The position numbers and the translations under genes are program-made. Positions 17,393 to 28,757 of a DNA stretch of 45,395 bases are shown here, piece after piece. The stretch is from Gemmataceae bacterium (GTDB taxonomy: Bacteria > Planctomycetota > Planctomycetia > Gemmatales > Gemmataceae): contig SIAQ01000032.1 in assembly GCA_009697105.1 (NCBI GenBank), positions 1 through 45,395 of the forward strand, in the 5' to 3' direction. The first letter of the stretch is position 1, and every line of letters begins with the position of its first letter. The notes beneath the pieces were generated by a model. That model ran no database searches and was not told where the DNA came from. It saw only the letters and a program-made list of their open reading frames with translations.

Positions 17393-17421
17393 TTGACGGC
17401 GGCTGTCAATCTCCCTATCGT
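17393..17421 (+). promoter_or_regulatory. Candidate sigma70-type promoter for the S10 operon
   Basis: TTGACG at 17393-17398 and TATCGT at 17416-17421 are separated by exactly 17 bases, about 40 bases upstream of the rpsJ GTG. The -35 matches the consensus at five of six bases, the -10 at four of six. Promoter rules in planctomycetes may differ. Confidence 0.35.
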
Positions 17422-17463
17422 AACGTGTCTCGACTGAAACGACAATTTTTTTGGGGATACATC

Positions 17464-17799
17464 GTGGCCGCAGCCGCCAATGAAAGAATTCGCATTCGGA
17501 TGGAAGCATTCGATCACGAAGTATTGGATAAAACCGCGAACGAAATCGTGGAAACAGCGCAGCGCACCGGCGCGCTGGTTCACGGCCCGATTCCGCTTCC
17601 AACACGCATCGAGCGCTACACTGTGCTGCGTTCGCCGCACATCGACCGCAAGTCGCGTGAGCAGTTTGAGATTCGCACGCACAAGCGCTTGATCGATATT
17701 CTTCAGCCGACCGGAAAAACCATTGAGGCGCTGAATAAGGGCCTCAGTCTGCCTCCAGGCGTCGATATTAAGATCCGTGTTTTGGCAGGCAAGGCTTGA
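17464..17799 (+). CDS. rpsJ: Small ribosomal subunit protein uS10
   Basis: The 111-residue product carries the S10 signature: [20 protein letters not shown], then [20 protein letters not shown] and the DKKSREQFE-like [15 protein letters not shown] loop, ending VDIKIRV. It binds 16S rRNA in the head of the 30S subunit and, as NusE, takes part in antitermination. The GTG start has GGGGAT upstream. It heads the S10 cluster and is followed directly by rplD, not by rplC as in most bacteria. Confidence 0.95.
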
Positions 17800-17810
17800 T
17801 TTGAGTTTTC

Positions 17811-17849
17811 ACCCAGGTCATGCGGCAAGGCGTCGTATCCTGGGTTTTT
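17811..17849 (+). terminator. Terminator- or attenuator-like hairpin between rpsJ and rplD
   Basis: A 7-bp stem, ACCCAGG at 17811-17817 with CCTGGGT at 17839-17845, is followed by a run of five T (17845-17849). The 21-nt loop is large, so it may be weak. It sits exactly where rplC would normally be, ahead of rplD, whose product regulates the operon in enterobacteria. Confidence 0.45.
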
Positions 17850-17909
17850 CGTTGAGTGAACGCAACCGTTCGCGCTATTGTGACGAATGGTTTTTATTAT
17901 GAGGTTCCC

Positions 17910-18575
17910 GTGTCCACAGAACAAACAAAGCCGATCAGCCTGCCTGTATTCGACGCGCAGGGGCAGAGTGTCGGTTCGGTCGAGGTGGATCCGGCTGAGT
18001 TGGGCGGCAGTGTTAATAAGCAGCTGCTCCACGAAGTCGTATTGATGCATTTGGCCAATCAGCGAGCCGGTACGCATTCCACGCTCCGCCGTGGCGAAGT
18101 CGCCGGCAGCACGAAGAAGCTGTTTCGTCAGAAAGGCACGGGTAACGCCCGTGTCGGAACTCGTCGGTCGAATAAGCGTCGCGGCGGCGGCACGGCGAAA
18201 GGTCCTAAGCCGCGCGATTACGAATACCATATGCCGAAAAAGGCCGTCCGCGCTGCCACCCGCATGGCTCTGCTGAGTCGGCTTGTTGATAACGAAGCCG
18301 TCGTGATTGATGAGTTAATATTGCCCGCAATACAAACCAAGCGAGTGGCGGGGGTTCTCAAGAATTTGCAGGTCGCCGATAAGACTTGTTTGATCAGTTT
18401 GGCGAAAACTGAGATTGATGAAAATCAAACAATCTACAAGTCGGCTCGCAATATCCGCGGAATGGCGGTTCTGCCGGCGGCTCAGCTTAACGCCTATGAG
18501 ATTCTGCGACCCAAGCGGCTTGTGCTGACGAAGGCTGCTCTTCAGGAATTGTGCAAGAGCGCTAAGTGGAAGTGA
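17910..18575 (+). CDS. rplD: Large ribosomal subunit protein uL4
   Basis: The 221-residue product has the L4 landmarks: a conserved loop STLRRGEVAGSTKKLFRQKG followed by TGNARVGTRRSNKRRGGGTA, and C-terminal NAYEILRPKRLVLTKAAL. L4 reaches into the peptide exit tunnel. The GTG at 17910 has GAGG nearby and fits the family N-terminus; the open frame extends 18 codons upstream without similarity. 110 bases separate it from rpsJ. uL3, normally the partner encoded just before it, is not present. Confidence 0.95.
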   Translation: MSTEQTKPISLPVFDAQGQSVGSVEVDPAELGGSVNKQLLHEVVLMHLANQRAGTHSTLRRGEVAGSTKKLFRQKGTGNARVGTRRSNKRRGGGTAKGPKPRDYEYHMPKKAVRAATRMALLSRLVDNEAVVIDELILPAIQTKRVAGVLKNLQVADKTCLISLAKTEIDENQTIYKSARNIRGMAVLPAAQLNAYEILRPKRLVLTKAALQELCKSAKWK

Positions 18576-18642
18576 TGCTGATTTAAACCTGCCCTGTAGC
18601 GTAAAGCGAAGGGTTGTGAGAAGTTTTTCGATAGGTGTCGTC

Positions 18643-18972
18643 ATGGCAGCTGCAGCGAAACCAGAAAAAACGACGTTTGGTCCCCTATTGGAGCCGCACC
18701 AGGTCGTGCTCGCTCCTTTGGTGACTGAAAAAGGCACGCACCAATCGACGAGCGAGCATCATAATGCTTATTCGTTTGTTGTGAATCTGTGGGCGAATAA
18801 AACCCAGATCAAGCACGCCGTCCAGGAGTTATTCAATGTGCGCGTAGTCGGCGTTCGGACTCAGCTTCGGCTCGGCAAGGTTCGCCGCTATCGCTTCAAG
18901 GAAGGCAAGTTGTCGAACTGGAAGAAGGCGATCGTCAAGCTGCACAAAGACGACAAGATCGAGTTCTATTGA
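18643..18972 (+). CDS. rplW: Large ribosomal subunit protein uL23
   Basis: The 109-residue product matches L23: LAPLVTEKGTHQSTSEHHNA, YSFVVNLWANKTQIKHAVQE and LFNVRVVGVRTQ with a basic LGKVRRYRF. L23 lies at the exit of the peptide tunnel and docks SRP and trigger factor. An ATG at 18643 was chosen; an earlier in-frame ATG at 18616 is less likely on length. Confidence 0.94.
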   Translation: MAAAAKPEKTTFGPLLEPHQVVLAPLVTEKGTHQSTSEHHNAYSFVVNLWANKTQIKHAVQELFNVRVVGVRTQLRLGKVRRYRFKEGKLSNWKKAIVKLHKDDKIEFY

Positions 18973-19034
18973 GATTCGCACGCTCTTAGGGTGTGTGTTG
19001 TTGAACGCAAGCTATTTGCGAGAGGACAGATAAG

Positions 19035-19889
19035 ATGGGTATTCGCTACTACAAGCCGGTGACGGCTGGTCGGCGTGCCGGATCGGTCAGCGATTTTGCG
19101 GAAATCACGGATCGCAAGAAGAAGCCGGAAAAGTCGCTGGTTGTACCCCGCCAGAAAAGCGGTGGCCGAAACTTTCAGGGCATTGTTTGCTCGCGCTTCC
19201 GTGCGGGCGGGCACAAGAAGATGTATCGGGTCATCGACTTCAAGCGGACCAAGGACAACATGTTCGCGAATGTCATCGCGATCGAGTACGATCCGAATCG
19301 CAGCTGTCGAATTGCGCTTCTTCAATACGAAGACGGCGTGAAGACTTATATCTTGGCGCCGGAAGGCGTCAAGGCTGGAGATCGCCTCGCGAGTGGGCCT
19401 GACGCAGAGCCCCGGGTTGGCAATGCGATGCCGCTGCGAAAGATCCCGCTGGGTATGAGTGTGCATAACGTGGAGATGCACCCGGGCCGCGGCGGGCAGC
19501 TGTGCCGCAGTGCAGGTTGCACGGCAACGTTGAGTGCTCGAGAAGGTGATTGGGCACAGATCACGCTGCCTTCGGGTGAAGTGCGTCGCCTCAACGCGAA
19601 TTGCCGAGCGACGCTTGGTTCGTTGGGAAATGCCGACCATATGAACATCAGTCTCGGCAAGGCTGGCCGTAAGCGCTGGATGGGACGCAAGCCGCATAAC
19701 CGCGGAACGTCGCAGAACCCAGTGAGTCATCCGATGGGCGGTGGTGAAGGTCGGACCGCTGGCGGGCGTCATCCTTGCGGTCCAACAGGTGTGCTGGCGA
19801 AGGGTGGCAAGACCCGTAATCGCAAGAAACCATCCAACAAGGCGATTATTCGCCGCCGTCGGCCGGGCTCGCATTATTCCCAAGGATGA
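19035..19889 (+). CDS. rplB: Large ribosomal subunit protein uL2
   Basis: The 284-residue protein is typical of L2: [71 protein letters not shown] and [16 protein letters not shown]. The peptidyl-transferase loop reads [13 protein letters not shown] where enterobacteria have NPVDHPHGGGEGR; the histidine equivalent to E. coli His229 is kept, the neighbouring Asp and second His are not. AGGACAG precedes the ATG. The following 169-bp gap to rpsS holds nothing I can name. Confidence 0.96.
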
Positions 19890-20058: not shown

Positions 20059-20355
20059 ATGGGACGTTCGATCAAAAAAGGACCGTATGTTGATATGCGA
20101 CTTCTCGGCAAGGTCGAGAAGCAGCAGCGCAACGGTAGTCGTGAGCCGCTTAGGACCTGGGCGCGGGATTGCACCATCGTGCCCGATTTTATCGGCCACA
20201 CGTTCATGGTTCATAACGGCAAGAATTTCGCCAAGCTTTTCGTCACAGAAGACATGGTTGGCCACAAGCTTGGTGAATTCGCGCCAACGCGAATGTTCAA
20301 GGGGCACAGTGGCGGAAAGCTCAAGACGCCGTCCGGGCCTGGTCCCGCGAAATAG
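20059..20355 (+). CDS. rpsS: Small ribosomal subunit protein uS19
   Basis: The 98-residue product begins [20 protein letters not shown] and carries [20 protein letters not shown] and the [16 protein letters not shown] end of S19, which binds the head of the 30S subunit with S13. GAGGTG lies 9 bases upstream of the ATG. Its stop codon is only 15 bases before the initiator tRNA gene. Confidence 0.96.
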
Positions 20356-20370
20356 TGCTTTCGTGGATAT

Positions 20371-20442
20371 CCCGGGGTGGAGCAGTGGTAGCTCGCCAGG
20401 CTCATAACCTGGAGGTCGCAGGTTCAAATCCTGCCCCCGGAA
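20371..20442 (+). tRNA. Initiator tRNA-fMet (anticodon CAU) inside the ribosomal protein operon
   Basis: A full cloverleaf of 72 nt: acceptor 20371-20377/20435-20441, D-stem GAGC/GCTC, anticodon stem CCAGG/CCTGG around CTCATAA, T-arm GCAGG-TTCAAAT-CCTGC, discriminator A at 20442. CCA is not encoded. Position 1 is C and position 72 is A, so the first acceptor pair is mismatched, and the D-stem has A11:U24; both mark a bacterial initiator tRNA. The anticodon stem has A29:U41, G30:C40 and G31:C39, so one of the three usual G:C pairs is A:U. It lies in sense between rpsS and rplV, 15 bases after the rpsS stop. Confidence 0.93.
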
Positions 20443-20507
20443 TTTTGAGTTTGGTAATGACCAGATACAGAGGCGTCGGCGGCCGAATGTTCTGTCTGTC
20501 GTTGATG

Positions 20508-20527
20508 CTTCCTGATCTGGGAGGAAG
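20508..20527 (+). promoter_or_regulatory. Small hairpin in the tRNA-rplV leader
   Basis: CTTCCT (20508-20513) pairs with AGGAAG (20522-20527) around an 8-nt loop, 30 bases ahead of the rplV start. It could help release the tRNA or tune rplV translation. Function is a guess. Confidence 0.25.
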
Positions 20528-20556
20528 TTTGTCGTTCAGAATTGTTAAGGTGGAAG

Positions 20557-20919
20557 ATGGATTACACGGCAAAACATCGCTTTGCAGACATGGGGGCACG
20601 TAAAATTCGTGCATTCGCGGACTTGATTCGCGGCAAGATGGCGGATGAGGCGCTGGAGTTGTTGCGCTTCTATCCAAATCGAGGCGCTCGCCTCTTAGAG
20701 CAGGTGCTCAAGAGTGCGATGGGGAATGCTGAGGATCGTGGATCGCGGGATAAGGATGAGTTGGTTGTTGTCGAATCCCGAATTGACGGTGCTCCGATGA
20801 TGAAGAGGTTCCAGCCCCGTGCTCGCGGATCTGCGTTTCCGATCAAGCGACGTTTCGCCCATATTATCGTGACCGTTTCCGATATGCAGGAGTCGGTTGC
20901 GGCGCAGGCGGCTCAATAA
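20557..20919 (+). CDS. rplV: Large ribosomal subunit protein uL22
   Basis: The 120-residue product has L22 landmarks: AKHRFADMGARKIRAFADLI, RGKMADEALELLRFYPNRGA, LLEQVLKSAMGNAED and the C-terminal PRARGSAFPIKRRFAHIIV. Its loop lines the peptide tunnel. An AAGGTGG lies just before the ATG at 20557; the frame extends five codons further without support. A leader of 114 bases separates it from the tRNA. Confidence 0.95.
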   Translation: MDYTAKHRFADMGARKIRAFADLIRGKMADEALELLRFYPNRGARLLEQVLKSAMGNAEDRGSRDKDELVVVESRIDGAPMMKRFQPRARGSAFPIKRRFAHIIVTVSDMQESVAAQAAQ

Positions 20920-21019: not shown

Positions 21020-21742
21020 ATGGGTCAGAAGGTAAATCCGACCGGATTTCGTACTGGAATTATGCTTGACTGGCAGAGCGTCTGGTATGCGGGCAAGCAG
21101 GACTTCGCTGAGCTTTTGGTGGAGGACACCAAGGTTCGCGCCCATGTTAACAAGTTTGTACGCACTCGTGTTAAGCAGGGGCGTCCGGGAATTTCGCGTA
21201 TCCGCATCGAGCGAACACGCGAAAAAGTCGTGGTTGTGATTTTCTCCGCCCGTGTCGGCGTTATCATCGGAAAAAAGGGGCAGGAAGTAGAGAAACTTAC
21301 GAAAGAGCTGGAAGACTTAACTCATCGTCACATCGAAGTCAAGACGATGGAAGTTGCCCGCCCAGAGAGGGATGCTCAGCTCGTTGCGGAGGATGTTGCC
21401 GATCAGTTGGAGAAGCGTCAGAGTTTTCGGCGTACGATCAAGCGTACCCTGGAACAGACAATGGAGGCGGGTGCCAAGGGTATCCGGGTTCAGCTTTCTG
21501 GTCGCTTGGGCGGAGCGGAAATGTCTCGTTGCGAAACTGCAATGCAAGGCAGTATCCCGCTTTCAACATTACGCGCTAAGATCGATTACGGGTTCACTGA
21601 GGCCAAGACTGCTCAAGGGCATCTCGGTGTTAAAGTATGGATTCATAACGGCGATTTTCTAGACGCCGAGGGGGACGACAATGCCGCAAATGCCCAAAAG
21701 AGTAAAGTTTCGAAAAAGCCAGCGTGGAAAGGTCCGCGGTAA
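21020..21742 (+). CDS. rpsC: Small ribosomal subunit protein uS3
   Basis: The 240-residue product starts MGQKVNPTGFRTGIMLDWQS and includes a KH domain with VGVIIGKKGQEVEKL, then RKTI-like FRRTIKRTLEQTMEAGAKGI and QLSGRLGGAEMSR. S3 lines the mRNA entry of the 30S subunit. GAGAGAGAG lies upstream of the ATG at 21020. The last 62 bases overlap the start of rplP in another frame. Confidence 0.96.
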   Translation: MGQKVNPTGFRTGIMLDWQSVWYAGKQDFAELLVEDTKVRAHVNKFVRTRVKQGRPGISRIRIERTREKVVVVIFSARVGVIIGKKGQEVEKLTKELEDLTHRHIEVKTMEVARPERDAQLVAEDVADQLEKRQSFRRTIKRTLEQTMEAGAKGIRVQLSGRLGGAEMSRCETAMQGSIPLSTLRAKIDYGFTEAKTAQGHLGVKVWIHNGDFLDAEGDDNAANAQKSKVSKKPAWKGPR

Positions 21743-22100
21743 GGCGTCTCGTGGGAATTTTGTTGCGTTCGGCGAATATGGTTTGCAGACGCTCGATGGT
21801 GGCTGGTTGACGGCGGAAGCGATCGAGGCTGGTCGAGTTACGGCTAGCCATTCGATGCGTGGTGATGGGCGCCTCTATATCCGCGTTTTTCCCCATAAAT
21901 CGGTTACGTCGATCCCGCTTGAGACTCGAATGGGTAAGGGTAAAGGCGAGCCGGAGTTTTGGGCAGCTGTGCTCCGGCCCGGTATGATTTTGTTTGAGAT
22001 CGCGGGCATACCCGAGGGTGCTGCGAGGGATGTTTTAGCTCGCGTGGCATACAAGATGCCGTTTAAGTGCCGGTTTGTTGGACGCCGTCCTAACGTTTAG
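21681..22100 (+). CDS. rplP: Large ribosomal subunit protein uL16
   Basis: The 139-residue product matches L16: MPKRVKFRKSQRGKVRGKAS, GEYGLQTLDGGWLTAEAIEA and RMGKGKGEPEFWAAVLRPGM. L16 helps position the A-site tRNA. The start at 21681 lies inside rpsC (62-base overlap) after GAGGGGG. An alternative ATG three codons later would give the more usual MPKRV start; either way the genes overlap, which suggests coupled translation. Confidence 0.95.
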   Translation: MPQMPKRVKFRKSQRGKVRGKASRGNFVAFGEYGLQTLDGGWLTAEAIEAGRVTASHSMRGDGRLYIRVFPHKSVTSIPLETRMGKGKGEPEFWAAVLRPGMILFEIAGIPEGAARDVLARVAYKMPFKCRFVGRRPNV

Positions 22101-22158
22101 TATTTAGGCGGCTGTTCGGATTCGTTCCATCCAACGGTGATATTTTTCGAGAGATGCC

Positions 22159-22380
22159 ATGAAAGCGAGCGAATTGCGTCAGATGAGTGATGAGCAACTC
22201 GATTTGACGCTCAAAGAAACTGTAAAAAATCTGTTTCGCCTGCGATTCCAATCGGCGACGGACCGTTTGGAAACGCCAAGTGAAATTCAAAAGGCGAAGC
22301 GCGAAGTGGCTCGCATCAACACAATCCTGCGCGAGCGCCAAACCGGTGTTCGTGGGCAAATGCCAACTCAGGTTTCGTAA
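22159..22380 (+). CDS. rpmC: Large ribosomal subunit protein uL29
   Basis: The 73-residue product has the L29 helix pair: MKASELRQMSDEQLDLTLKE, KNLFRLRFQSATDRLETPSE and KAKREVARINTILRER. It sits near the tunnel exit next to L23. A GAGA lies upstream of the ATG. Slightly longer at the C-terminus than the usual 63-66 residues. Confidence 0.93.
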   Translation: MKASELRQMSDEQLDLTLKETVKNLFRLRFQSATDRLETPSEIQKAKREVARINTILRERQTGVRGQMPTQVS

Positions 22381-22390
22381 GAGGTGACGA

Positions 22391-22693
22391 ATGACTGCAT
22401 CGGTTCGTGGACTCCGCCGTACTGTCGTTGGAGTGGTTACTCGTGACAAGATGAACAAGACTCGCCGAGTTGAGATTCAGCGGGTCGAGAAGCATCCGCG
22501 CTACGGCAAGTATATCAAGCGTCGCACGGTCTGCTATATGCACGATGAGAACAATGAATCGCGCAATGGTGACGTGGTGGAAATAATGGAATCTAGGCCT
22601 TTGTCCAAGTTGAAGGCCTGGCGGTTGGTTAGTGTCGTGAAGAAGGCGCCAACTCAGGCTGCTGCGCCGAGCGAATTTGCTCCGACCGCTTAA
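22391..22693 (+). CDS. rpsQ: Small ribosomal subunit protein uS17
   Basis: The 100-residue product carries [40 protein letters not shown] and [20 protein letters not shown], the OB-fold of S17. The last 15 residues ([16 protein letters not shown]) are an Ala/Pro-rich tail beyond the normal end. GAGGTG lies just upstream of the start, 10 bases after rpmC. Confidence 0.94.
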
Positions 22694-22756
22694 CCATGAA
22701 CCCCACGGCCGACGGTTCCTTAAGGGTTCAAGCAGAATAGCTAAGGGTAATTTGTC

Positions 22757-23128
22757 ATGATTCAGATGTATTCCTACCTTGATGTTGCCGACAATACCGG
22801 TGCCAAAGAATGCATGTGCATCAAGGTTTTGGGTGGCACCAGGCGCCGTGTGGCGACGCTAGGTGATCTCATTATCGCCAGCGTCAAGAAGGCGATTCCG
22901 GGTGGTGAAGTGAAGCCGGGCGATGTCGTGAAGGGTGTTATTGTTCGCGTCAAGAAGGGCATTCGTCGCAAAGACGGTAGCTATATTAAGTTTGATCGCA
23001 ACGCGATGGTTATCTTGAACAAGGAAGATGACAATCCGCGCGGGACGCGCATCTTCGGTGCAGTTGCTCGCGAGTTGCGTGAAAAGGGTTATCTAAAAAT
23101 CGTCAATTTGGCCAATGAGGTCGTTTAG
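22757..23128 (+). CDS. rplN: Large ribosomal subunit protein uL14
   Basis: The 123-residue product matches L14: [50 protein letters not shown] and [21 protein letters not shown]14 forms an intersubunit bridge with 16S rRNA. The length is the standard 122-123 residues. Confidence 0.96.
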
Positions 23129-23194
23129 GTTCCTTGGCTCTGTAGTTGATGTAAAATGCGGCGGCTAACTCGCGGATTTGTACGGATAAATGTT

Positions 23195-23554
23195 ATGAAT
23201 ATTCGAAAAGATGATATCGTTGAAGTTATTACGGGTGACGACGTCGGTACGCCCAAGGCCCGAACAACGGCGCGCGTTCTGCGCATTGTGGCCGAGAAGA
23301 ATAAGATTGTCGTCGAAGGGATCAATCGCGTTTATCGCCACTTGAAGCCGAGTCGCCAGAACCAGCAAGGCGGGCGGTTGTCGAAGGAGATGCCGATTGA
23401 CGTGTCCAACGTTAAATTGTTTTGCGCAGCATGCCAACGCGGCGTTCGCATCGGCAAGCGATACGCGGCCGATGGCAGCAAGGAGCGCTATTGCAAGAAG
23501 TGTGGGAGCGGACTCGGCGCGTTGAGTAAGGCTCGCGCAGCCTACGCTCAATAG
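23195..23554 (+). CDS. rplX: Large ribosomal subunit protein uL24 with a C-terminal zinc ribbon
   Basis: The 119-residue product has a KOW domain (MNIRKDDIVEVITGDDVGTP, VVEGINRVYRHLKPS) followed by PIDVSNVKLFCAACQRG and RYCKKCGSG, a C-x2-C...C-x2-C zinc ribbon at residues about 83-107. L24 starts 50S assembly. The ATG at 23195 fits the family; an ATG 13 codons earlier has no support. Confidence 0.95.
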   Translation: MNIRKDDIVEVITGDDVGTPKARTTARVLRIVAEKNKIVVEGINRVYRHLKPSRQNQQGGRLSKEMPIDVSNVKLFCAACQRGVRIGKRYAADGSKERYCKKCGSGLGALSKARAAYAQ

Positions 23555-23645
23555 TAGTGGCCTCTGCGTCATGGTGACGCTCGGATCAAAGAAATTGGTT
23601 AGGCGAGAATTTCGGTTCATTCCGTCCTGTGACGAAGGTTGAGTT

Positions 23646-24188
23646 ATGGCTCGGTTATTGGAACGCTATCGTAAAGAGATTGTCCCTCAGCTACAGAGCA
23701 AATTCGGGCGTATGAACGTCCTGAGTCTGCCCAGGCTGCAGAAAATTTGCGTGAATATGGGCGTGGGGAAAGCTCTGCAAGACAAGAATCGTATGGAGCA
23801 GTCTGCCGAACAGCTCACTGCTATATGTGGTCAGCGTGTGCAGATCACGAAAGCTCGTATAGCAGTTAGCGCCTTTCGTCTGCGCCAGGGAAACGAGATC
23901 GGTTGTCGGGTGACGCTCCGTGGCAGTCGCATGTATGAGTTTCTGGATCGGCTAGTCAGTGTGGCTTTGCCTCGTATTCGTGACTTTCGGGGCGTGAATC
24001 CGAAGAGCTTCGACGGCAACGGCAACTATACCATCGGCCTGTCGGAGCAGCTCGTTTTCCCTGAGATTGATCCCGATAAGGCGACATTCACCCAAGGCAT
24101 GGACATTACGTTCGTCACGAGTACGCACAACGATGACGAGGCGCGTGAACTCCTTCGCCTTTTTGGTATGCCTTTCCGTGAAGCGTAA
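23646..24188 (+). CDS. rplE: Large ribosomal subunit protein uL5
   Basis: The 180-residue product has L5 landmarks: MARLLERYRKEIVPQLQSKF, NVLSLPRLQKICVNMGVG, AVSAFRLRQGNEIGCRVTLR, FLDRLVSVALPRIRDFRGVN and FPEIDPDKATFTQGMDITFV. L5 binds 5S rRNA in the central protuberance. The length is standard. Confidence 0.96.
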   Translation: MARLLERYRKEIVPQLQSKFGRMNVLSLPRLQKICVNMGVGKALQDKNRMEQSAEQLTAICGQRVQITKARIAVSAFRLRQGNEIGCRVTLRGSRMYEFLDRLVSVALPRIRDFRGVNPKSFDGNGNYTIGLSEQLVFPEIDPDKATFTQGMDITFVTSTHNDDEARELLRLFGMPFREA

Positions 24189-24231
24189 TGAAATGTATCG
24201 ATATGGAAACTGACTGCAACGTGGGCCAACA

Positions 24232-24462
24232 ATGTCAACCTTAGCAAAAAAAGTCGAACACGAACGCAACCTCAAGCGGATTGAGCTTCACAAGAGCGGC
24301 AAAAAGATAATGCCGGGCCGTGATCTGATTCGTATTCGTATGCGCTGCCGGCTTTGTGGTCGCGCCCGCGCCGTATACCGTAAGTTCAGCATATGCCGAA
24401 TTTGTTTCCGCAACATGGCGAGTAAAGGCCTTATTCCTGGCGTGCAAAAGGCGAGTTGGTAG
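24232..24462 (+). CDS. rpsN: Small ribosomal subunit protein uS14, zinc-binding type
   Basis: The 76-residue product ends [20 protein letters not shown] then [20 protein letters not shown], with the C-x2-C...C-x2-C zinc site of the C+ type. The N-terminal 35 residues ([20 protein letters not shown]) are longer than the usual 61-residue zinc form. S14 binds the 30S head. Confidence 0.94.
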
Positions 24463-24533
24463 TTCTTTGGGTTCCGAAGATAAATCGGCATATGCGGTGA
24501 AGGCATGGCCGAGTGTCTGGAGTGATTTTCGAT

Positions 24534-24977
24534 ATGATGACCGATTCGATCGCCGACATGTTGACGCGTATTCGCAATGCCAATCGCATTGAGTCTCCCT
24601 CTTGTGATATGCCGTCCACCAAGCTGAAGACCGCCGTCGCCCAGGTGCTGAAGGACGAGGGATTTATCCTCGACTTTCAGGTCGGGAAAGTGTCCAAAGT
24701 GGAAGGTCGCTCGGTATTCGAACCGGAAGTAGCGTTGAACGACCCGAAGAAGATTCTTCGCGTGTTCCTCAAGTTTGGCCCCGAAGGTGAACGCGTCATC
24801 CGTAGGATCGAGCGCGTTAGCAAGCCAGGTCGCCGCCTCTATTGCAGCTACAAGCAGTTGCGTCCCGTCCTTCAAGGCATGGGAATTTCGGTCGTCAGCA
24901 CCAGTCACGGTGTCATCAGTGATCGCAAGGCGCGTGCGGAGCGGCTCGGCGGCGAACTTCTGTGTCGAGTTTGGTGA
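24534..24977 (+). CDS. rpsH: Small ribosomal subunit protein uS8
   Basis: The 147-residue product begins MMTDSIADMLTRIRNANRIE and ends with the S8 block KQLRPVLQGMGISVVSTSHG, VISDRKARAERLGGELLCRV. S8 binds the central domain of 16S rRNA. GGAGT lies upstream of the ATG at 24534. A variant stretch GKVSKVEGRSVFEPEVALND replaces the usual beta region. Confidence 0.95.
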   Translation: MMTDSIADMLTRIRNANRIESPSCDMPSTKLKTAVAQVLKDEGFILDFQVGKVSKVEGRSVFEPEVALNDPKKILRVFLKFGPEGERVIRRIERVSKPGRRLYCSYKQLRPVLQGMGISVVSTSHGVISDRKARAERLGGELLCRVW

Positions 24978-25048
24978 AAACTCGGAGTGATTTTTCCGAG
25001 ATACCCAGGGAGCCAATGTGTTTTCTTTGGGAGCAAGGGGTTCTTTCC

Positions 25049-25597
25049 ATGTCCCGTATCGGCAAACAACCTGTTGTGATTCCCGCAGGCGTTAAAGTGA
25101 AAATTGACGCCGGCAAGATCTTCGTTGACGGACCGAAGGGTAAGCTAGATTTCGTCTGGCATCCAGCAATGAAGGTTGAATCCGACGGAAAAGCCATCCA
25201 GGTTACTCGTCCTAACGATGAGCGGCTCAATCGTTCATTGCACGGCCTGACGCGGTCGCTCATCAATAATATGGTGGCGGGTGTTACGACAGGTTATGCG
25301 AAGAAACTGAAAATTGAGGGCATCGGTTATCAGGCCAAAATGGACAAGAAGGCCGTTGTCCTCATGGTGGGCTATGCCAACCATGTTGTGAAAAATCCGC
25401 CCGATGGCATTTCGGTTGCCTGCCCCGATCCGAACACTATTATCGTTACGGGTGCGGATAAGCAGAAAGTCGGCCAATTTGCGGCCGAGATCCGAAGCGT
25501 ACGGAAACCTGAGCCCTATAAGGGCAAGGGGATCATGTACGATGGCGAGAAAATTCGCCGCAAGGAAGGCAAGTCGTTCGCCAGCGGCGGTGCCTAA
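25049..25597 (+). CDS. rplF: Large ribosomal subunit protein uL6
   Basis: The 182-residue product starts MSRIGKQPVVIPAGVKVKID and has VDGPKGKLDF, RSLHGLTRSLINNMVAGVTT, KLKIEGIGYQAKMDKKAVVL and the L6 signature PEPYKGKGIMYDGEKIRRKE. ATG 25049 fits the family start; the frame extends upstream over the end of rpsH without similarity. GGGAG lies about 20 bases upstream. Confidence 0.96.
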   Translation: MSRIGKQPVVIPAGVKVKIDAGKIFVDGPKGKLDFVWHPAMKVESDGKAIQVTRPNDERLNRSLHGLTRSLINNMVAGVTTGYAKKLKIEGIGYQAKMDKKAVVLMVGYANHVVKNPPDGISVACPDPNTIIVTGADKQKVGQFAAEIRSVRKPEPYKGKGIMYDGEKIRRKEGKSFASGGA

Positions 25598-25671
25598 TAG
25601 CCGAAATATTTTACACGCAACGCGTAGCATGATGTGCGGGCATCGCTATTGCCGCATGGTTCAGGTGGGTT

Positions 25672-26040
25672 ATGGATCAACAGAAACTCAAACATCGTCG
25701 TCAGTTGCGTCGCCGTCACCATGTGCGATCGGCGATCGTTGGAACCTCGGAGCGGCCACGCTTGACCGTTTTTCGAAGCTCCAAGCATATTTATGCGCAG
25801 CTCGTTGACGACATTAACGGGATCACCGTGGCGTCGGCGAGTTCGCGCGGTAAAGATGTGCGTTCCTCGTTGCCATATGGTGGGAACGTCAAAGCCTCTC
25901 AGGTAGTGGGTAAGAAGCTCGCTGAGATGGCAAAAGAGAAGGGCGTGATGCTCGCCGCTTTTGATCGTGGGCATTACCGTTACCACGGCAGAATCAAGGC
26001 GCTTGCTGACGCAGCTCGCGAAGGCGGATTGCAGTTCTGA
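25672..26040 (+). CDS. rplR: Large ribosomal subunit protein uL18
   Basis: The 122-residue product carries [49 protein letters not shown] and the C-terminal [20 protein letters not shown] of L18, which binds 5S rRNA. AGGTGGG lies just upstream of the start. Confidence 0.95.
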
Positions 26041-26095
26041 TATACTAGAAATCAACGATTTTCGCGTGAGCGAAAACCATTCCGAGGTTATTTCG

Positions 26096-26614
26096 ATGGC
26101 CAAAGATCAACGTGATCGTAAGGATAGCCGAGATTCGCATAACGACGGACTTGAAGAGCGAATCATCAAGATCAGGCGGTGCGCCTCCGTTGTCAAAGGT
26201 GGTCGGCGCTTCAGCTTCAACGCGATGGTGGTTGTCGGTGACCGTCAGGGTCGCGTTGCGTGGGGATATGGCAAGGCCAACGAAGTTCCGCCCGCAGTTG
26301 AGAAGGCTGCCAAGGAAGCGGAAAAATCGCTCAAACAGATGACGAAAATTTCGATGAAGGGGGAGACTATCCCGCATCGAGTTGTCGGAAAATTCGGCGC
26401 CAGCAAGGTAATACTGGTTCCCGCCGGTCCCGGCACGGGCGTCAAGGCGGGGCCTGGTGTGCGAGATGTTCTGGTCGCCGCCGGTATCCACAATATCTTG
26501 ACGAAAGTGCATGGCAGTACGAACGCCATCAACCTTGTCAAGGCCACCATCGACGGACTGAGCCAGTTGCGCACCCGTCAGCAGGTTGAACAACTTCGCG
26601 GAGTTTCCCTCTAA
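26096..26614 (+). CDS. rpsE: Small ribosomal subunit protein uS5
   Basis: The 172-residue product has RIIKIRRCASVVKGGRRFSF, NAMVVVGDRQGRVAWGYGKA, NEVPPAVEKAAKEAEKSL and the end PGTGVKAGPGVRDVLVAAGI. S5 acts in decoding accuracy. GAGG lies upstream of the ATG at 26096. Its TAA overlaps the rplO ATG (TAATG), so rpmD (L30), which often lies here, is absent. Confidence 0.96.
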   Translation: MAKDQRDRKDSRDSHNDGLEERIIKIRRCASVVKGGRRFSFNAMVVVGDRQGRVAWGYGKANEVPPAVEKAAKEAEKSLKQMTKISMKGETIPHRVVGKFGASKVILVPAGPGTGVKAGPGVRDVLVAAGIHNILTKVHGSTNAINLVKATIDGLSQLRTRQQVEQLRGVSL

Positions 26615-27117
26615 TGGATCTTTCTACCGTACATCATGGCGTCAATAAGCGAACGCAGAAGAAGCGTGTCGGTCGCGGTCCGGGTAGCGGGCACGGCAAA
26701 ACCGCATCCCGCGGCAGCAAGGGCCAATACGCGAGCGCTGGCGCGAAAAAGCCATCGTTCACGTTTGAAGGCGGCCAAATGCCGCTCTTTCGTCGCATGC
26801 CCAAGCGCGGCTTCAGCCACGAAACCTGGGATAAGAAGTATCACGTCGTTAACATCGGCGATCTCGATAAGGCGTTCAAGGACGGCGACACTGTCTGTCC
26901 CGCGTCGCTAGACAGAGCTGGTCTCGCCAAGGGGCCAGCTGACGGCGTTCGCGTTCTCGGTCAGGGCGATCTTTCTAAGAAGCTCGTCGTCAAGGCCCAG
27001 CATTTTTCGAAGTCGGCGAGCGAAAAGATCATTGCCAAGGGCGGTTCGATTGAGATAATTCCCGGACCGAAGAAGCCAGTTCGCAATAAGATGAAACCTC
27101 CCAAGGTAAGGGCATGA
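26614..27117 (+). CDS. rplO: Large ribosomal subunit protein uL15
   Basis: The 167-residue product shows L15: KRVGRGPGSGHGKTASRGSK, GQYASAGAKKPSFTFEGGQM, PLFRRMPKRGFSH and HFSKSASEKIIAKGGSIEII. It overlaps rpsE by one base (TAATG), indicating translational coupling. It is the last gene of the continuous ribosomal block before the palindrome at 27138. Confidence 0.96.
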   Translation: MDLSTVHHGVNKRTQKKRVGRGPGSGHGKTASRGSKGQYASAGAKKPSFTFEGGQMPLFRRMPKRGFSHETWDKKYHVVNIGDLDKAFKDGDTVCPASLDRAGLAKGPADGVRVLGQGDLSKKLVVKAQHFSKSASEKIIAKGGSIEIIPGPKKPVRNKMKPPKVRA

Positions 27118-27137
27118 TGTTTTCTGCATCGATTTAG

Positions 27138-27190
27138 TGTAGCACGATGCTCCGCGTCGTAAATTCTACGACGCGGAGCATCGTGCTACA
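27138..27190. repeat. Perfect palindrome, 24-bp arms, between rplO and secY
   Basis: Arms 27138-27161 and 27167-27190 (TGTAGCACGATGCTCCGCGT...) are perfect around a 5-nt loop. This is the only long palindrome within the S10-spc-secY run, placed just at its rplO/secY boundary. No T-run follows. Confidence 0.92.
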
Positions 27191-27314
27191 AATAAGGGCT
27201 GTTCGGTTCGCTTTTCGTCGTCGGGTTGATTGGATCGGCTCGATTTAGCCTCGCCGGTTTGTCTTGCGAGTGATCGCCTGCCGCGAGGAGCTGGGTGTTT
27301 GAGAGGATGATTCC

Positions 27315-28757
27315 ATGGCGACCGCCACGGCGATGATAAAATCGGGCATGAATTCCTTCGGTCAGAGCCGATTGGCCTCGATCTTCAAGATCAAGGAACT
27401 CCGCCAAAAGATCATCATCACGCTGCTTTTTCTCGGCATCTATCGCATTGGGTTTCATGTGCCCGTGCCGATGATCGATCAGTATGGCATGTTCAACGCC
27501 ATGCGTGGTTCCGAAGAAGGCCTGCTCGGGCTGATTTCCATGTTCTCGGGCGGTAGCCTCAGCCAAAGTACAATCTTTGGCCTCGGTATTATGCCCTACA
27601 TCTCCGCGTCGATTATCTTTCAACTCCTATCGAGCGTCTATCCGCCTTTGGAAAAGCTCAGCAAGGAGGGTGAAGGCGGACGGAAGAAAATCAACGAATA
27701 TACGCGCTACGCCACGGTCGTCATATGTATTTTTCAAGCGTGGATGTGGGTTTCGAGCCTCATTAAGCCGAGAAACGAAGGGGGGTCGGGCCTGGCGATA
27801 CAAGGCTACGACACCTTCTTCTACGTCTTCGCCACGATCATGATCATGACGGCAGGTACCGTTCTACTCATGTGGATCGGTGAACAGATCGACGAATACG
27901 GCGTCGGCAATGGCATCAGCTTGCTCATCATGGCTGGTATTGTCGCTCGCATACCCGATGCCACACAAATTCTTATCATGGCCCGGGGCTCGGAACCCGG
28001 CTATGAAATTCCGATCCTCGGCTTCAAAATCCGGGCGAGCATCTTCCAACTCGGCGGCAGCGGCGTCGGTGGCGATGTGGGCTTGGAAAAAATATTCGTG
28101 CTGCTCTTCCTGTTTATTAGCGTCGTCGTCGGCGTGATCTTCATGACCAAGGCTCAGCGCCGAATCCCGACGCAGTCCGCCAAACATGTGCGCGGTCGGC
28201 GAGTCTATGGCGGCACGCGGAACTTCCTGCCGTTGCGAATCAATCAGTCTGGCGTTATGCCCGTGATCTTCGCCAGCAGTTTGTTGATCCTGCCGACAGT
28301 GGCGCTGAAAGGCATCGCGCAGCAATTTCCAACAGCAAATTGGGCGCATAATGCGGCCCACGCGCTGGAACGCCAGGGATACGTCTACAACATTCTTTAC
28401 ATCATGCTGATTTACTTCTTCTGCTACTTTTGGACGGCCATTACCTTCAATCCACGAGATATCGCCAACAATCTCAAGGATTACGGCAGCTTTATTCCCG
28501 GCTATCGGCCTGGCAAGCGGACTGCCGATTACCTCGAAAAAGTCATTATGCGGATCACGTATGTAGGCGCTGCATTCTTGGCGATCGTCGCCATCATTCC
28601 CAGCGTGATCTCCTCGGCCCTCGAAGTCAACTATACCGTCGCGAGTTTTTACGGTGGAACCGGGCTGCTTATCGTCATCAGCGTGGCGCTCGATCTCGTG
28701 CAAAAGATTAACAGCCACCTGGTAATGCGCAATTATCCGGGACTTACCGAAGACTAA
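27315..28757 (+). CDS. secY: Protein translocase subunit SecY
   Basis: The 480-residue protein has the SecY start FKIKELRQKIIITLLFLGIY, RIGFHVPVPMI, a plug region SGGSLSQSTIFGLGIMPYIS, ASIIFQLLSSVYPPLEKLSK and the last cytoplasmic loop NPRDIANNLKDYGSFIPGYR. Ten membrane segments are expected. It is the channel of the Sec translocon. A GAGAGGATGA lies ahead of the ATG. A second in-frame ATG 11 codons on (27348) could also be the start. Somewhat longer than the usual 430-440 residues. Confidence 0.95.
   Translation: MATATAMIKSGMNSFGQSRLASIFKIKELRQKIIITLLFLGIYRIGFHVPVPMIDQYGMFNAMRGSEEGLLGLISMFSGGSLSQSTIFGLGIMPYISASIIFQLLSSVYPPLEKLSKEGEGGRKKINEYTRYATVVICIFQAWMWVSSLIKPRNEGGSGLAIQGYDTFFYVFATIMIMTAGTVLLMWIGEQIDEYGVGNGISLLIMAGIVARIPDATQILIMARGSEPGYEIPILGFKIRASIFQLGGSGVGGDVGLEKIFVLLFLFISVVVGVIFMTKAQRRIPTQSAKHVRGRRVYGGTRNFLPLRINQSGVMPVIFASSLLILPTVALKGIAQQFPTANWAHNAAHALERQGYVYNILYIMLIYFFCYFWTAITFNPRDIANNLKDYGSFIPGYRPGKRTADYLEKVIMRITYVGAAFLAIVAIIPSVISSALEVNYTVASFYGGTGLLIVISVALDLVQKINSHLVMRNYPGLTED

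Follow-up and report, generated by a model that had tools for sequence, protein, structure and literature searches.

Why should a bacterial ribosomal protein operon carry the gene for the transfer RNA (tRNA) that starts translation? The question is raised by the window analysed here, the whole 45,395-nucleotide (nt) stretch of contig SIAQ01000032.1 from a Gemmataceae bacterium (assembly GCA_009697105.1), in which a gene for initiator tRNA-fMet(CAU) lies between rpsS and rplV of the S10 operon. By its sequence this is a genuine initiator tRNA gene, for which formylation and a role in the ribosomal P site are predicted. Spacing, signal scans and comparison with relatives make it probable that the gene is a cistron of the S10 operon, usually the sole initiator found in its genome, and that its product is co-transcribed with, and excised from, the S10 mRNA.

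The identity of the gene rests on several agreeing readings. The Rfam tRNA model RF00005 matched exactly positions 20371-20442 of the plus strand (E 4e-13, 69.1 bits, with a match that spans all 71 positions of the model), and ARAGORN called a tRNA-Met (CAT) at 20370-20443 as the only tRNA of the window. These calls give a cloverleaf tRNA with a CAU anticodon and bear out the initial annotation, which had placed a complete initiator tRNA in sense between rpsS and rplV, 15 bases after rpsS; the TAG stop of rpsS indeed ends at 20355. The C1 x A72 mismatch and the A11:U24 pair, which it had named as initiator marks, are both read in the sequence. The covariance check that it had proposed points the same way, since R1, an initiator model built from 12 sequences, the window's own among them and the others from relatives, scored the gene at 106.3 bits compared with 61.2 bits for the tRNA listed next in the same genome. 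A misread elongator tRNA is ruled out by the two marks together with this 106-bit score. CCA is not encoded in the gene, and it stands directly behind the discriminator in one of 30 listed initiators (L044). We also noted that position 1 is T, not C, in three initiators outside the operon (L236, L245, L247), where it could pair with A72.

The initial annotation had further presented the anticodon stem (C27:G43, C28:G42, A29:U41, G30:C40, G31:C39) as a departure from the three G:C pairs at 29-31/39-41, which are described as highly conserved in initiators in PMC7949028. The reading itself was correct, with A:U at 29:41 and G:C at the other two positions. As a peculiarity of this gene, however, A29:U41 was dropped, because 20 of the 21 initiators printed from elsewhere in the genomes of planctomycetes share it, which makes it ordinary there, and so does not distinguish the window gene within the phylum. 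The pair was also found in records titled Bacteroidales and Chloroflexi, retrieved with a search pattern that itself demands the 5' side of the stem.

We compared the placement of the gene across 59 genomes, the window's own (G000) included. Among these, rpsS was found in 56; with one contig (G036) breaking off within rpsS, 55 neighbourhoods could be assessed. The tRNA directly follows rpsS in 28 of them, again counting the window's own, as an intact gene called by ARAGORN in 24 and as a split gene in 4. An assembly misjoin at rpsS/rplV, which the initial annotation had raised together with the advice to look at this gap in relatives, is excluded because the contigs of independent genomes share the arrangement. 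The linked genomes fall into four family-level groups, namely f1 (17/33 assessable, 13 intact and 4 split, with 37 f1 genomes in the set), f2 (7/7), f5 (3/3) and f7 (1/1); none of the 11 genomes of f3, f4, f6 and f8 has a tRNA at the S10 site. Linkage was counted in at least 18 of 168 genomes from across the class (G000, G001 with a split gene, G002, G004, G018, G022, G024, G029, G034, G145 and G181; G037-G040; G046 and G051; G048). The S19 protein of G004 is identical to that of the window. In other classes, by contrast, an initiator adjoining rpsS was seen in 0 of 114 genomes (those of 129 that had both matches, compared by eye), and the nearest pairs on one contig lie 13, 18, 22 and 28 kb apart. 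Three genomes of these other classes (G305, contig C26; G277, C157; G234, C3) have the initiator on the strand of rpsS and 13-22 kb downstream of it, perhaps where the ribosomal cluster ends.

The search pattern that fixes the 5' side of the anticodon stem gave 99 initiator matches, 32 of them with rpsS in the retrieved stretch; all 32 are titled planctomycete or unspecified bacterium, one being Candidatus Kuenenia. That record (L178, titled Candidatus Kuenenia stuttgartiensis) has an S10-linked tRNA with spacers of 12 and 37 nt, as in L033, L102 and L154, and its name may be wrong. In L019, the rpsS-rplV gap of 199 bp holds no tRNA and has 26% G+C compared with 40% for the locus. The listings of searches among open-licence papers showed no account of a tRNA in the rpsS-rplV gap, nor of introns in planctomycete tRNA-fMet genes. 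On a quick tree of 55 rows, built from four ribosomal proteins (one row lacks rplV and two lack rpsC), S10-linked presence was clustered, requiring 7 changes compared with a shuffled mean of 18.7, and 0 of 500 shuffles were as low. Since f5 is the first to branch after f4, the outgroup of our choice, an old origin with several losses would be the simplest story, although counts of this kind cannot separate gain from loss.

At the cut-off used for copy counts in the 59 genomes (at least 80 bits with R1), 21 of the 24 genomes with an intact S10 copy showed no initiator besides it. The window's genome (5.4 Mb, 187 contigs, 91.9% complete) gave 32 tRNAs with RF00005, all typed by ARAGORN, and the CAT anticodon occurs solely in the S10 gene; the search for other tRNA-fMet genes suggested by the initial annotation yielded none, the next listed tRNA being the one at 61.2 bits. 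An intact elongator tRNA-Met(CAU) was likewise not found in this genome and may sit in its missing part or be split. A second initiator accompanies the S10 copy in G009, G022 and G023. These second copies have the 5' acceptor strand CGCGGCG, as do 11 of the 13 other non-operon initiators printed for f1; the S10 copies of f1 have CCCGGGG. No initiator of at least 80 bits was found in G003, G008, G017 and G031, so that incompleteness and strict filters matter. Seven class members that are at least 97% complete (G063, G076, G142, G154, G165, G170 and G183) gave no initiator match at E 1e-15; divergent or split initiator genes are possible there, and G076 alone among them has a match to the group I intron model RF00028.

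The arrangement of the operon is as follows.

17425..19889, plus strand, rpsJ, rplD, rplW and rplB, upstream S10 genes (NCBIfam; starts of the open reading frames unrefined)
20059..20355, plus strand, rpsS (S19), upstream neighbour (NCBIfam TIGR01050)
20356..20370, plus strand, spacer of 15 nt between rpsS and the tRNA gene (measured on the sequence)
20371..20442, plus strand, initiator tRNA-fMet(CAU) gene (Rfam, ARAGORN, sequence reading, initiator model R1)
20443..20556, plus strand, spacer of 114 nt between the tRNA gene and rplV (measured on the sequence)
20547..20553, plus strand, AAGGTGG, Shine-Dalgarno-like sequence for rplV, 3' of the tRNA (our reading of the sequence)
20557..20919, plus strand, rplV (L22), downstream neighbour, ATG at 20557 (NCBIfam TIGR01044)
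21020..28757, plus strand, S10/spc genes from rpsC to secY, downstream (rpsC, rplP, rpmC and secY by family search; the genes after rpmC and before secY assigned from their translations by eye)

By NCBIfam the plus strand thus reads rpsJ-rplD-rplW-rplB-rpsS-[tRNA]-rplV-rpsC-rplP-rpmC and, further on, secY, with the tRNA inside the S10 operon and on its strand. In 60 neighbourhoods with the gene (two overlapping collections, 38 distinct contigs), the rpsS-tRNA gap is 5-90 nt with a median of 15, and the tRNA-rplV gap, measurable in 55, is 19-442 nt with a median of 59. Nine distinct contigs leave at most 13 nt before and at most 38 nt after the tRNA, and in 5 of the 7 f2 genomes the rplB-rpsS and rpsS-tRNA gaps are both at most 36 nt. 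A sigma-70-like scan of the S10 region found no promoter-like site on the plus strand between rplB and rplV; the only plus-strand site of the scanned stretch lies at 17393-17421, just ahead of rpsJ, and both strands together gave 4 sites compared with 2.5 expected. The tRNA-rplV spacer holds a single terminator-like hairpin (20507-20528) with a poor T run, and such sites occur at chance across the region (6 found, 5.7 expected).

In the mechanism that we propose, the S10 mRNA would be read through the tRNA cistron. RNase P would cut at the 5' end of the tRNA, a few bases past the rpsS stop codon, and RNase Z or another 3' nuclease would cut the 3' end, followed by CCA addition. The operon RNA would in this way be split into a piece ending with rpsS and a piece starting just ahead of rplV, the latter with its own Shine-Dalgarno-like sequence. 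Little weight is put on that sequence, because planctomycetes are reported in PMC6728339 to have few strong ones. It is plausible that initiator supply would be tied to ribosome synthesis through this link, since 21 of the 24 genomes with an intact copy showed no other initiator.

How else could the gene have come to stand and stay here? It might be an independent unit whose own internal promoter lies in rpsS or in the 169-nt rplB-rpsS gap of the window, with the cut in the mRNA as a side effect. The size of that gap speaks for such a unit, as does demand: in Escherichia coli, a ribosomal protein mRNA goes through some tens of rounds of translation and initiator tRNA is present at a sizeable share of the number of ribosomes, so that initiator tRNA is needed in greater numbers than the mRNA. 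However, the scan saw no plus-strand sigma-70-like site there, some relatives have hardly any intergenic room, and the rplB-rpsS gap is no longer with the tRNA (median 71.5, n=28) than without it (median 90, n=27; p=0.34), which also disposes of a longer gap as the sign of an internal promoter. We consider an independent unit unlikely. Co-transcription and excision are favoured because the spacers are short, these gaps are not lengthened, the plus strand lacks a promoter-like site and terminator-like sites stay at chance. A neutral history, to which we give somewhat less than even weight, would be compatible with co-transcription: an essential single-copy gene would be trapped in the operon until a second copy exists, its position carrying no regulatory meaning. 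The length and letters of the spacers vary freely, and the second copies with CGCGGCG in G009, G022 and G023 suggest a path of duplication followed by loss; the persistence of the placement across four family-level groups might seem to contradict such a history, yet the trap predicts the same. A misjoin or a misread elongator tRNA has a negligible chance of being true, as no support for either was found and both the independent genomes and the initiator marks speak against them.

Several points nevertheless weigh against the S10-cistron interpretation. The gene is absent from this site in 27 of the 55 assessable genomes, most of which have an initiator elsewhere, so that S10 linkage is not obligatory. 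The tree is weak at 13 of its 52 inner branches, and the starred branches alone force just 2 changes. The genomes are mostly drafts, in which an only copy is the only copy found. The identity, position, conservation and compactness of the gene, and its uniqueness in the searched drafts, are observations; co-transcription, processing and the matching of supply are inferred. A promoter could possibly lie within the rpsS coding sequence or be of a type unknown to the scan. Finally, a single tRNA from each mRNA may not suffice, which would argue for an extra promoter or an unusual stoichiometry.

The nearest precedent for the S10-linked initiator is metY-nusA-infB of E. coli, where, according to PMC6511841, an initiator tRNA is co-transcribed with translation-machinery genes and rapidly cut from the mRNA by RNase III, metY being a dispensable minor initiator copy. 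Both cases place an initiator tRNA among translation genes. Unlike metY, the planctomycete gene has its place within the S10 operon and was, in most genomes with an intact copy (21/24), the only initiator found. If co-transcription is true, the apparently sole source of start tRNA would be a by-product of ribosomal protein mRNA. The locus would then offer a simple natural system for the question of initiator supply versus ribosome number, and a test case for operon expression when the mRNA must be cut midway.

The window's own S10 copy has no intron. In four relatives, L006 (same genus as the window), L013, L014 and L017, the S10 initiator gene is split after U33, reading ...GCCAGGCT, the insert, and then CATAACCTGG... 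The inserts are 645, 356, 677 and 345 bp long, respectively, and all four match RF00028, with scores of 37.7-46.2 bits that stay under the Rfam cut-off of 50 (E 9.9e-7 to 2.8e-9). They look like putative self-splicing mobile group I introns. A conserved TGGGCTGCACG stands just ahead of a P2-like hairpin in every insert, and in our reading the GGCU within it may be the guide that pairs with the end of the 5' exon (P1), the cut being marked by U33.G; when the core is folded without exons, the minimum-energy structure instead pairs TGGGCT with a downstream AGTCCA. No second initiator of at least 80 bits was found in the four split genomes, which are drafts of 79-95% completeness. On the tree the intron label needs 3 changes and is hardly clustered, as 43 of 500 shuffles were as low.

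L006 and L014 retain an intact frame for a 149-residue PD-(D/E)XK endonuclease (PF11645, E 3.2e-45 and 1.1e-48). Counting the stop, 106 of 150 positions are the same in both frames, and nonsynonymous divergence (dN) is far below synonymous divergence (dS) by two methods (0.22 and 1.5; 0.20 and 1.3), which speaks for constraint on the endonuclease. The L014 protein matches PDB 2ost at E 1e-62, an entry listed as 'Putative endonuclease' that we take to be I-Ssp6803I. L013 and L017 keep only C-terminal remnants, the last 47 (103-149) and 41 (109-149) residues. Similar to these inserts of 645 and 677 bp, the tRNA-fMet gene of Synechocystis sp. PCC 6803 carries, according to PMC1995217 and PMC3073962, a 655-bp group I intron with the 150-codon PD-(D/E)XK endonuclease I-Ssp6803I in P1, overlapping P1/P2. 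The present cases differ in their planctomycete hosts, in that the interrupted tRNA lies within a ribosomal protein operon and in that two of the four inserts are left with just the C-terminal part of the endonuclease. Homing group I introns would here gain an essential target in a ribosomal operon, and close relatives represent the intron-plus, intron-minus and decayed states.

In many carriers the rpsS stop lies 5-15 nt ahead of the tRNA. It is conceivable, if rather unlikely, that the S10 operon is controlled through the tRNA. Each initiator would cost one cut between rpsS and rplV, ribosomes terminating on rpsS would shield the 5' end, and this would couple the translation of rpsS to the maturation of the tRNA and the stability of the mRNA; intron carriers would also need self-splicing at the same site, so that a mobile element would gate all of their initiator tRNA.

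Elsewhere in the operon, rplC (L3) is absent between rpsJ and rplD (17800-17855 of the window), where it normally lies, and the L3 family PF00297 found no match in the 92% complete genome; the same model matched in 14 of 14 control genomes.

Further group I intron-like matches were seen in other tRNA genes. In the window's genome, a tRNA-Ile(CAU)-like gene, Ile identity being our reading, is interrupted after U33, where the tRNA-fMet genes of the relatives are also split, by a weak RF00028 match (L226, G000:C133:18909-19128, minus strand; 27.8 bits, E 9.1e-5, cut-off 50). Like split genes occur in G004, G001 and G008 (L227, L223 and L222). Azoarcus also has a group I intron in its tRNA-Ile(CAU) gene, inserted after U36, unlike the split after U33 seen here. 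In G076, a tRNA with a CAT anticodon is apparently split after U36 (L225, G076:C1:6598073-6598258; RF00028 E 1.3e-5), and in G035 a partial group I intron match (L229, G035:C594:6261-6345) lies beside an apparent tRNA 3' half.
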